From Viola odorata (lineage: Eukaryota > Streptophyta > Magnoliopsida > Malpighiales > Violaceae), in assembly GCA_963691705.1 (NCBI GenBank), contig OY829541.1:3780885-3844884 (forward strand): a stretch of DNA of 64,000 nucleotides. The letters run 5' to 3'. Of this stretch, positions 40,708-44,981 are shown one piece after another. Position 1 is the stretch's first letter. Each line of letters starts with the position of its first letter. A program made the translations under genes and the position numbers. Below the pieces are notes generated by a model, which saw only the letters and a list, made by a program, of their open reading frames with translations, had not been told where the DNA came from and did no database searches.

Positions 40708-41144
40708 TAAGGCTGCGTTTACTTCGGAGCTTTTTCCAGAAAAATCTCCAGTTTTTAGAAAAATAAACGAAAAAATAGAGAACGTGTTTACTTGGCGTAT
40801 TTTTCCATTCTCGAATGGAAAAGAAAAATCTCCCTACTGTTCATTTGTGAACAAATTTGGAGAGGGCAGAATTGATGATCTCCATTTTTCCTCTCCAAAT
40901 GGAAACACGCGTTTCCAATTCAATAAACAGTGCCATTTAAATGATTTTTTCTAAAACCCAATTTTGCCCTTTTCTATTTCTTCTCACGCTTGTCTTCTCA
41001 TTTCTTCTCCTCTGCCTTTGCTACCTAACCTCAACGCAGTCGTTCTTCTTCTTCGTCTCCATCTCCGATCGTCTCCAACGTCTCCATCTCCGGTCAGAAG
41101 CTTTCTTTTTCTCTCGCTCTCGTCTCGAGCTCGTGCAGTTAAGC

Positions 41145-41357
41145 ATGGCGCCTGTGAGAGCCATGGGCGCTGTTGTAGCTGCTGTCTCTGTCTCTGTACT
41201 AGTGTTCTCCTATTTTCTCCACAATCACGGCGCCAAGAAAAAGACTCATTTCTCTTCTCTGAAGAAGAAGAAGAAAGCAAGAAACGGACTGGTTGATGCT
41301 ATTGGAAACACTCCGTTGATTAGAATCAATAGCCTCTCTGACGCCACTGGATGTGAA
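41145..41357 (+). pseudogene. PLP-dependent cysteine-synthase-like enzyme, first exon
   Basis: The ATG at 41145 opens MAPVRAMGAVVAAVSVSVLV, a membrane-anchor-like start, then a Lys-rich linker and GLVDAIGNTPLIRINSLSDA and TGCE, ending at a GTAAGT donor. GNTPLIRI is the signature of the cysteine synthase/OAS-TL fold, and the hydrophobic start recalls a distinct plant membrane-anchored member of the family. The exon looks intact at 71 codons. The next exons expected (Lys-containing GGSVKDR block) are missing; a later exon of the same gene is at 43226. Confidence 0.75.
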
Positions 41358-41982
41358 GTAAGTTTCATGATATTAGTTTCTGGTTCATTATTTGCTTCTG
41401 GGTTTTCTATAATTTATTGTTTTATGTCTAATTTGTGGAACTCTTCTATGGTTTTGGACTTTACTTTGTCTAAAGCTACAAGCTTTATGATTTTGGAGTC
41501 TTGGTGCTGTTTTTCTAATCTATGATTCTTGGAATTATGGTGCTGTAAGTTTTCTGTAGCTAACCAGTAGCTTGGAGTTTCATTTCTAATGTGTAATTTG
41601 TGAAGTATTGTTGGTGTAGACTTTTAGGCGTTTGTGATTTTGATCAAGCTACGATTTTCCTTTCTTGTTATGGAGCTAGCCTTGTCTACAATTCATACGT
41701 GATTGGAATCATTATGTACGGTATTGCCTGATCTCTGGTTGTGTTTTTGTAGAGTACATTCATATTTGCGTAGTGACATGCTCGTTAAGCTGTGATGATT
41801 AAATTTCATGAGCTCTTCTGTCTGGGTAGTTAAGCTTAGTTTGATTTGTTATTTTGCTTTCTTTAGTCTTTTTCGGTTCTTAAAGCAGCAGAGCTATACG
41901 TACATGGTCGTGTATGTTTAGTGAGATAAATACAGATAGATAGATAGAGAATTTTAAGTCGGATAGAGAAAAAAAGAGGGTA
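41358..41982. other. Intron-like DNA within the TIR element
   Basis: T-rich, non-coding, starting at the GTAAGT donor of the first cysteine-synthase-like exon. It is followed by the leader of the kinase fragment. Confidence 0.5.
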
Positions 41983-42131
41983 ATGGAGGATATCGAGGAA
42001 GAGGAGAAGGGAGGAGGGGAGCAGGAGGTGCTGGGATCGAGCTTGACGATGGAGAAAGTAGCTGCAGCTAAGCAGTTTATAGAGAATCACTATAGAGCTC
42101 AGATGAAGAATATTCAGGAGCGGAAAGAAAG
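41983..42131 (+). pseudogene. NDR/tricorner-type AGC kinase, first exon
   Basis: The ATG at 41983 opens MEDIEEEEKGGGEQEVLGSS, then LTMEKVAAAKQFIENHYRAQ and MKNIQERKER, ending in phase 2 at a GTATTT donor. This is the N-terminal regulatory region of plant NDR (LATS/NDR family) serine/threonine kinases, which binds MOB co-activators. No kinase catalytic domain follows, so it is a captured first exon only. Confidence 0.8.
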
Positions 42132-43225
42132 GTATTTATTTGTTGTTTATGACTTTAGTTGATTAAAGTTCTCTGCTTTATGTATATTTGTATAAATTCT
42201 TCTAGTAAGTGAATAAATTGGGTGTTATCTGGAATGTTACATTTTTGTAATTTTTGTAAAACTTGAAGTGGAGAGAGCAAGAAGTATGTTCTTCTGCTGC
42301 TGGGTTAGTTGATTTGGTGAAATGGGTGTTCGATTCTTGCGTGATGGGAGCTGAAGAGTGAAATCTAAGATACAGTTTCGGTTTATTTTGTGAGGAGTGT
42401 TTTTCTTATGGAGGTGTTAGTTTGATGTCTTTGGTAAATGTGGGGGAGAGAGGAAACTTATTAGTGTTTTGGAAGTTAAGAAAAGAAGGGGTTTCCCTTA
42501 AATGTGGGAAATTATGGTTGGACCACCTTCTTTTCTGGATTCTGTTTAGTAGATTTGATGATCCAGTTGGATTCTGGATGCATTATTGTCAGGCGACAGC
42601 AGGTGCTGCATTTGATAGTTTTAGTTAAATGCACCAGATTCCTATTTATAACTGTTTCTGAACCAGAATAATGTAGCAGTTGGGCATTGAATTAGTATTG
42701 CTCAGAGGTTGTCTTCATAAGAGCTGCACTCATTTGTTTCCAAAGAAAAGGCTTTCTCCAAAATATGGGAATTTCCACCTCTAATTTGGGGTGCAGAAAA
42801 GTCATGCAAACTGGTCCAAAAAAAAGTTTCGTACCACTGTTTAGCTGGCAAGAGATGCAGAATTCTGGCAATAAGGTTCCCACTTGGGTTCTATTGTTAC
42901 CGATAACACATACAAGCTTTATGTTATGTCCAGTTTTTTTACAGTTTCCTTTTGAAGTGAAGAACTTGCCTTTCCTCTCATATTCCTGCTTCACCATTTT
43001 AGTTTGAAATAATAATAATTAAAGAATCCAAATCCGGTTTATCCTCTTTTGCCTTCTCTCTGTAGGTTATAGTAATCTCAATTCTCAACGCATAAATTTG
43101 TGTGAGGGGGTTAGAACCACTTCAATGTCATATGTGATCCAAGGTTGTAACCAGAATTATTTGGTTTGCTATTCAATGATTTGTTTCCCTCTGTTGTATG
43201 TTCTAATCTCTCTTTTCTGATACAG
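42132..43225. other. Non-coding interior of the TIR element
   Basis: Starts as the kinase intron 1 and ends as an intron upstream of the second cysteine-synthase-like exon; the junction between the two captured sources must lie in this stretch but is not obvious. No exon recognised. Confidence 0.4.
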
Positions 43226-43329
43226 GCTCTTGCATCTGGCCAGCTATTCCATGGCGGCGTTGTTACTGAGGGAAGTGCTGGAAGCACTGCTATTAGCCCG
43301 CTACTGTTACTCCTGCATACGGATGCAAG
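43226..43329 (+). pseudogene. PLP-dependent cysteine-synthase-like enzyme, later exon with frameshift
   Basis: It follows a TACAG acceptor and reads ALASGQLFHGGVVTEGSAGS, TAIS, then, after loss of one base near 43305, ATVTPAYGCK, with a GTAAAA donor. This is the GSAGST-containing segment of the same enzyme as the exon at 41145. The frameshift shows it cannot encode enzyme. Its donor directly abuts the leader of the H+-ATPase fragment. Confidence 0.75.
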
Positions 43330-43355
43330 GTAAAATCTGCAGCTGGGTTATCAAA

Positions 43356-44231
43356 ATGGAAGAGAAGGCAGGGGCCCTTGAAGCTATAACCAAGGAGACT
43401 GTTGATCTGGTAATATCTTATGAGTAGTTATGCCATGTTTTTGCCTGTCCTAGTTGCAACACTGTTATTAATTGTAAAACCTTGGTTACATGATACCATA
43501 ATAGATGTGTAGCTGAGTGGTTATCTCCGTACTTAGGAAACATGAAACCGTCGTGTATAAAAAGTATACCTGTTGGTTGAAAGTTTGGTCCTATGGCAGT
43601 CATTAACAATTTGGGTCTCTTCCTTTGATCATTAAGGGGGTGATGTTATTCTTTTCGCAAGCAGGAAACTTTCTGCAAACTATTTGTCCTGAAACTCTAG
43701 TTTGCTTAATTGTGTTTTATGTGCACGAGTAGAATTCAAGAACAAAAACCCACTTCTAAACGAAGGAACTTCCTTCAGATACATTAAAGATTGATCTTTG
43801 TCAAGGAAAATACTTATCACCGAGTAGGAATATAATTCTTGTATCTCTAGTCAATGTTCTATTGAGTCTGCAATAACTAGTACATATAACATGCTTTTCT
43901 CATTAGAAGTGGGTTTTGGCAGGAGAATATTCCTGTTGAAGAAGTTCTTGAGAAGTTGAGATGTACTAGAGAGGGTCTCAGTGATGAAGAAGCTAAAATG
44001 CGGTTGGAGGTGTTTGGGCAGAACAAGCTTGAGGAGAAAAAGGTGCCTAAGGCTTCATAGTACTTGTCCTGCTTCAACTTCTGCAAACTCTAACTTGGCT
44101 CTTACTGGTTGCTTCAGGAAAATAAGATACTCACGTTTTTAGGCTTTATGTGGAATCCTTTGTCATGGGTTATGGAGGCATTTATGCACAAAGCTTCAAA
44201 GCAATCCCATGATTTGTGGTTTTTATGCTGA
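43356..44231 (+). pseudogene. Plasma-membrane H+-ATPase (P-type) N-terminal fragment
   Basis: Exons 43356-43409 (MEEKAGALEAITKETVDL), 43923-44042 (ENIPVEEVLEKLRCTREGLS, then EAKMRLEVFGQNKLEEKK) and from 44118 (ENKILTFLGFMWNPLSWVME) join in phase with canonical GT-AG borders. They are the cytosolic N-terminus and the approach to the first membrane helix of plant H+-ATPases (AHA family). After WVMEAFM the sequence leaves the family and ends at TGA 44229-44231. About 96 codons of a protein of about 950 residues remain. All transmembrane, phosphorylation (DKTGT) and regulatory parts are missing. Confidence 0.85.
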
Positions 44232-44490
44232 ATATTGTGATGACATTTATATTAAGGAATATTGTTTATGCATATTTGTTTAGTTAAAAATAAATTTATC
44301 ATGCATGTTCTTGCATTTGTTCATTGTTTTGATCATTGAGGCAAATGGATTGGAAGTGATTTAATTTGGAACATACAAAAGTGATTTATGTGATATCACT
44401 TTGGCAAATTTTTCAGAATATTAATTAGAATTTTTTAGAAGTCAAATTGGATGAAACCTTTTTTTGGACTATTTTCTGACGATTTTTATA

Positions 44491-44785
44491 GTGTCATGAC
44501 GCCCAAGATCCAGCGTCATGACACCCCAAACAGAAGTGATGGGTTCTTGCGAAAATATCCCAGCGTCATGACGCCTAGTCTCAAGCGTCATGACGCCCCA
44601 AACAAAAGTGATGGTTTTGCGAAAACATCCCAGCGTCATGACATCCAGGCTCATGCATCATGACGCCTCAAATAGAAGTGATGGGTTCTATCAAAATTAA
44701 GTCAGCGTCATGACGCCTAGTCTCAAGCGTCATGACACCCAGGCTTAAGCGTCATGATACCCAGGATCAAGCGTCATGACGCCCA
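44491..44785. repeat. Subterminal array of the palindrome GCGTCATGACGC
   Basis: Ten copies of (A)GCGTCATGAC(G/A)CC occur in 295 bp near the right end of the TIR element; several are the perfect 12-bp palindrome GCGTCATGACGC. Around them a longer unit (CAAACAGAAGTGATGGGTTC, ...GCGAAAATATCCCA) repeats three times. Dense subterminal repeats are typical transposase-binding regions; no matching array was seen at the left end. Confidence 0.85.
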
Positions 44786-44981
44786 AACACATTTTCATTT
44801 TTCCAAAAATTGGAAATAAGTGCGAAGTAAACACGTTTTCTAGTTTTTCAGATTTGGAAAATTTTAGAAAAATGCGAAGTAAACACGTTTTCCAGTTTTC
44901 GGATGGAAATGAAAAAGTTCAAAATTCAGAAAAATAGAATTTTTTTGGAAAGGAGATTTTTCCAAAGTAAACGCACCTTAA

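Follow-up and report, generated by a model that had tools for sequence, protein, structure and literature searches.

The window analysed here is a stretch of 64,000 nucleotides of the Viola odorata genome (C5:3780885-3844884 of a 699-Mb assembly in 26 contigs, against which all own-genome searches were run). At positions 40711-44978 it contains a 4,268-bp transposon whose interior is made up of pieces of three host genes, encoding a cysteine-synthase-like enzyme, an NDR-type kinase and a plasma-membrane H+-ATPase (Table 1). The first-pass annotation of the window had described matched inverted ends with TAA on each side, and both are present; the termini form an inverted pair (I11) of 22 nt with 82% identity, flank bases counted in. 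TAA/TAA is a 3-bp duplication of the TAA/TTA kind that defines PIF/Harbinger elements, which argues that the element is PIF/Harbinger-like. It contains no recognisable transposase, as positions 41098-44180 are host DNA and seven open reading frames (ORFs) chosen from both end regions gave no Pfam match. Host-gene pieces lie between the ends, their parents lie elsewhere, and the whole moved as a unit after capture, as in Pack-TYPE elements; chimeric transcripts are reported for some members of that class but do not define it. On its sequence the element is classified as a non-autonomous PIF/Harbinger-type, multi-donor Pack-TIR (terminal inverted repeat) transposon, or Pack-PIF; the multi-donor Pack-TIR assignment had already been made in the first-pass annotation and is upheld by three unlinked donors and by further full copies elsewhere. 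A search of a plasmid collection gave no match, as expected for plant DNA.

Table 1. Features of the Pack-PIF element and its flanks (positions in the window; donor positions within the respective locus)
Feature	Position	Strand	Donor or distribution
Left target-site duplication, TAA	40708..40710	.	
5' family end (terminal inverted repeat, subterminal region, CT-rich leader)	40711..41097	+	Common to sister elements
Cysteine-synthase-like piece: part of 5' leader, exon 1 (41145-41357), part of intron 1	41098..41865	+	L015 3662-4455
NDR-type kinase piece: leader, exon 1 (41983-42131), part of intron 1	41863..42960	+	L013 3823-4920, 99.1%
Second enzyme piece: part of intron 2, part of exon 3 (43226-43327)	42961..43327	+	L015 4798-5163
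Plasma-membrane H+-ATPase piece: leader, exon 1 (43356-43409), exon 2 (43923-44042), start of exon 3 (44118-44180), introns kept	43328..44180	+	L018 3982-4424 and 5306-5716
3' family end with GCGTCATGACGCC-type tandem units (44490-44787) and 3' terminal inverted repeat	44181..44978	+	Found at about 40 genomic places
Right target-site duplication, TAA	44979..44981	.	

Alignment to parental genes identified all three donors in the same genome, at unlinked places: the enzyme gene (L015) at C10:51.70 Mb, the kinase gene (L013) at C10:3.33 Mb and the H+-ATPase gene (L018) at C6:52.87 Mb. All three extend beyond the captured part, and no parental gene cluster with the same exon order was found. Ten ORFs from the donor loci were scanned, eight of which had a Pfam match, one of them a copia gag; some matches were below the Pfam cut-offs. 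The kinase donor contains PF00069, and for the frame tried the best relative with a solved structure is human STK38 (NDR1). The enzyme donor contains PF00291 and matches cysteine-synthase models, and the H+-ATPase donor contains PF00122 and matches TIGR01647, the NCBIfam matches of both being partial and below whole-protein cut-offs. From its own sequence the H+-ATPase piece is recognisable (PDB 5ksd, E 3e-26; PF00690 in the spliced peptide), as is the enzyme piece (cysteine synthase, E 1.4e-6). The kinase exon by itself is not (best E 0.77), and its name is taken from the donor gene. The donor matches confirm the earlier assignment of exons of these three genes to the plus strand; each piece is in sense orientation with a start codon. 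Two separate enzyme exons had been proposed and both are present, more precisely as donor exons 1 and 3 with exon 2 missing. Likewise, all three predicted H+-ATPase exons are present, the third being cut at 44180 and then reading into transposon sequence up to a stop at 44231.

The GT/AG splice sites match those of the donors where compared; the paralog L017 was only partly readable by the same patterns. The cargo has retained its introns, so it was copied as DNA, and RNA-mediated capture was rejected. The 5' enzyme piece is 95.5% identical to L015 with gaps counted and has 7 substitutions in 762 sites (0.9%). The kinase piece likewise differs from its donor by 0.9%, the H+-ATPase piece by 1.5% (13 of 852 substituted) and the 3' enzyme piece by 3.0%. 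By comparison, the donor paralogs L014, L016 and L017 differ by 4.9-7.0% in the captured stretches. The window is closer to the donors than the paralogs are, which indicates that the capture is younger than the split between donor and paralog and that one particular gene copy was used. An approximately 880-bp copia-type gag insertion (PF14244) in an intron of the H+-ATPase donor (L018 4424-5306) most likely postdates the capture, because it is absent from paralog L017 and from the captured copies, including that in the sister element L011 described below.

The reading proposed in the first-pass annotation depended on other genomic copies with the same termini, and such copies are present. A search of the genome with the whole element returned at least 78 matches, with 40 candidates scored. 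Two further full copies lie at C9:57481662-57485925 (99%) and C6:10337501-10341707 (98%); the flanks of both are unlike those in the window, and both are bordered by separate 3-bp duplications (TAA/TAA on C9, TTA/TTA on C6). The complete bundle stands at three unrelated sites while its donors persist as continuing genes. The exact 5' end preceded by TWA occurs at 28 genomic places and the exact 3' end followed by TWA at 32, the reversed control giving 0 in each case; the 3' end in the window, with CACCT and not CACCC, is outside the 32. When the two lists were paired by position and strand, with both ends at most 5 kb apart, 14 elements were obtained apart from that in the window, two being the full copies. 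An identical trinucleotide is found on both sides in 13 of the 14; the remaining element, C2:70349792-70352856, has TAA/TTA and forms the second member of a head-to-tail pair. Among the fetched elements, L027 has flanks that are neither TAA nor TTA. The tandem units at window 44490-44787 are spaced about 70 and 22 bp apart and also occur in sister elements.

A sister element on C9 (L011, 8.99 Mb) is free of kinase DNA. Its enzyme piece is contiguous over L015 3662-5163 (98.3%) and comprises exons 1-3, and its enzyme and H+-ATPase parts are fused at the same base as in the window. In the window and in the copies L009 and L010, 339 bp of enzyme-gene sequence are missing, and 1,098 bp of the kinase gene occupy their place. 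The replaced 339 bp, present in L011 and L015, hold enzyme exon 2, ILGKCEFLNPGGSVKDRVAVKIIEE. The joins are identical in separate copies. Read from both donors, the overlaps are 3 bp from enzyme to kinase, 0 bp from kinase to enzyme and 1 bp from enzyme to H+-ATPase, lengths that refer to the three cargo joins, the two joins with the family ends being less exactly readable. The last of these had been misplaced in the first-pass annotation, in which the enzyme exon ended at 43329 and the H+-ATPase leader began at 43330. The join lies at about 43327/43328, exon to exon, and the GTAAAATC found there belongs to the H+-ATPase leader. In the simplest order suggested by this comparison, the enzyme and H+-ATPase pieces came first and the kinase piece later.

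Between the window and L011, the first 235 bp contain 35 differences in 233 sites and the last 177 bp contain 18 in 177 (53/410 outside), compared with 34 in 2691 in the interior; between the window and L009 the values are 6/412 in the ends and 17/2759 inside. The Fisher value for this contrast is descriptive only, since the regions were picked after the differences had been seen. As the ends have diverged and the interior is alike, the same cargo lies between two different sets of ends. L012 (C7:6.28 Mb) shares the first 1,124 bp of the window's element at 99% and then continues differently, with an aldehyde-dehydrogenase piece among its contents; a 233-bp part of its interior is common at 93% to L031, an element in which both family ends are present.

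The related copies in this one genome thus preserve what look like steps of capture, and we consider it quite probable that the interior of the transposon was rewritten stepwise by copying unlinked host genes. In such a scheme, breaks inside the element would be repaired with template switching. Enzyme and H+-ATPase DNA would be taken in before the kinase DNA, the interior would be exchanged at least once with another family member, and a PIF/Harbinger transposase acting in trans would then mobilise the product. In the alternative model of Catoni et al., as retold in part of PMC8903248, elements insert on either side of a gene piece, the inner ends are lost and the outer ends mobilise everything between them. 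Such fusion may also play a part in this family, given two head-to-tail pairs, L024 (C2:70347000-70355000) and L023 (C4:71919500-71927000), in each of which a single TAA lies between the partners; the C2 pair is bordered by TTA on either outer side, as though its two halves had jumped together. In addition, the captured stretch of the kinase donor has a diverged family relative some 0.8 kb upstream (L013 1225-2992). Arguing against fusion is the fact that no element end is left between the three cargo pieces and that the kinase step removed 339 bp of earlier cargo and inserted DNA of an unlinked gene; moreover, no family ends were seen in L015 or L018 in a general family comparison, in which no search was aimed at their flanks. 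Fusion of neighbouring insertions is therefore regarded as unlikely, and repair with template switching fits the comparison of L011 with the window better. Apart from the head-to-tail pairs, several observations weigh against stepwise rewriting. The overlaps of 0-3 bp may be no longer than chance would give. Divergence is a weak guide to the order, as the 5' enzyme piece (7/762) is no more diverged than the kinase piece, for which three copies each show 10 differences from the donor in 1093 sites; the corresponding values are 10-13/852 for the H+-ATPase piece in four copies and 11/364 for the 3' enzyme piece. Furthermore, L011 may have been reconverted later from the enzyme gene, because its exon-2 stretch is nearer to the donor (1/339) than are its flanks (12/788 and 7/365) and only two shared-derived sites unite it with the window.

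It could also be argued that selection maintains, or once maintained, the bundle as an expressed chimeric gene. The splice sites are retained, all pieces are in sense orientation with start codons, the leader has an ATG at 40941 that shares its reading frame with the start of the enzyme, and an N-terminal H+-ATPase frame of 79 residues is open in all four copies, followed by a short tail (16 residues in the window, shorter in L010). These features are outweighed by the loss of enzyme exon 2 with its SVKDR stretch, by the small number of copies and by the reading frames. In the window, a 1-bp loss brings the enzyme frame, read from exon 1 into exon 3, to a stop where the H+-ATPase leader begins; in L009, L010 and L011 it enters the H+-ATPase part in a different frame and meets a stop about 20 codons later. 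Because the frame in the window ends at this junction, no long in-frame fusion protein is predicted, and there is no sign of a functional fusion; a fusion gene was rejected on these grounds, and maintenance by selection appears very improbable. The captured pieces are probably passengers now, and chimeric or silencing RNAs are possible products. That the arrangement is an assembly artefact or a chance likeness is scarcely credible. No point in its favour was found beyond the reliance on a single assembly, and three full copies on three chromosomes with differing flanks, identical joins in separate copies and reversed controls of 0 speak against it.

Stepwise rewriting by copying can be extended to a broader proposal, for and against which we see the chances as evenly balanced. 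The PIF/Harbinger elements of this genome would be break-repair cassettes, in which DNA copied from an unlinked host gene mends an internal break, a captured exon can be swapped for that of another gene, and the finished inside can pass under other ends by the same repair. If this is true, before and after states within one family bear on the way in which plant TIR elements acquire genes from unlinked places. A single assembly contains copies that are probably earlier and later, donors that persist as genes, and joins that are the same in separate copies, which makes the capture models separable by reading junctions across one family.

Pack-PIF elements are already known, and the element in the window is a large, multi-donor member with readable steps. 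Pack-MULEs belong to the Mutator superfamily, can capture DNA from multiple loci and generate longer duplications, whereas the element in the window has 3-bp TAA/TTA duplications. The two resemble each other in that captured gene pieces are amplified by transposition, and some Pack-MULEs yield chimeric transcripts; in the part of the review concerned, the mechanism by which unlinked genes are captured is left open (PMC13317346). A close parallel is Zm-Pack-PIF cluster #18 of maize, which has PIF/Harbinger-type ends and, according to the relevant part of the source, gained pieces of two genes in succession, the second in a subgroup only (163 bp, plus 58 bp in four elements; PMC8903248). These maize elements average about 0.5 kb and are read there as compatible with neighbour fusion (PMC8903248). 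The element in the window differs from cluster #18 in its size (4.3 kb), its three donors, its retained introns and start codons, and the replacement of one piece by another. The Pifvine-3 elements of grapevine are PIF elements with mostly TAA/TTA duplications and host exons plus introns; as described in the portion of PMC2528002 cited here, the host DNA forms a long 5' region and the elements are grouped by their transposase; no transposase was recognised in the element in the window. For animal Pack-TIRs, gap-filling and FoSTeST models invoke template switching with short overlaps (median 2 bp), much like the repair proposed here, and that part of the paper calls testing the models on plant Pack-MULEs worth exploring (PMC8277862). 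In the open-licence literature no exon replacement in a PIF element was met, by searches not worded exactly for that, and nothing relevant to a stepwise multi-donor case was found among the titles listed.

Other family members carry other cargo. ORFs were listed for eight sister elements with differing insides, at most nine each, and ten from six of them were scanned against Pfam. Matches in seven of the ten, from six elements, comprised an aldehyde dehydrogenase (L012), LCAT (L022), an AAA ATPase and AAA lid (L026), a kinase start below the cut-off (L027), a beta-amylase family member (L024) and TOD1/MUCI70 (L021); three ORFs of L028 and L023 gave no Pfam match. In the window, a leader ATG at 40941 (MIFSKTQFCPF...) opens a frame over 40941-41144 that continues in frame into the captured enzyme start, and similar leader starts occur in L031 and L024 (MNFSKTQFCPF, MNFFKTQFYP). 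A shared leader peptide could, judging from these frames, be fused to varied cargo.

The genome contains at least 181 matches to the transposase domain PF13359. Six such loci were fetched, and a matching 3' end was found in four of one family, L033, L036, L037 and L038, the last three having been chosen for their resemblance to L033. The terminal sequence of these four is AAGTAAACGGGCCC-TAA or nearly so, and their likeness to the subterminal part of the element is 77-86% over 72-113 bp; L037 has a Myb/SANT protein (PF12776) alongside PF13359. This family is the likely source of the transposase. The assignment stops short of proof because the 5' ends of these four loci were not found, a further point against the scheme proposed above. 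L034 and L035 carry PF13359 without such family ends and were discarded. L029-L032, retrieved through further 5' ends, were rejected as autonomous partners since no transposase was recognised by eye, without a hidden Markov model scan, in their listed ORFs. At each of the two paralogous kinase loci, a long PF13359 frame lies some 11 kb away from the kinase gene (C10:3322256-3322726, 551 aa, and C9:17618948-17619418, 611 aa); it is perhaps a domesticated transposase gene.

Elsewhere in the window, positions 10911-16260 hold a LINE-type (long interspersed nuclear element) retrotransposon with two long frames, one of 528 aa with DUF4283 and one of 1,258 aa with endonuclease, reverse transcriptase and zf-RVT domains. 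A frame at 17364-18059 has a GeBP-like DNA-binding domain (PF04504), and another at 21207-21665 an Agenet domain (PF05641).

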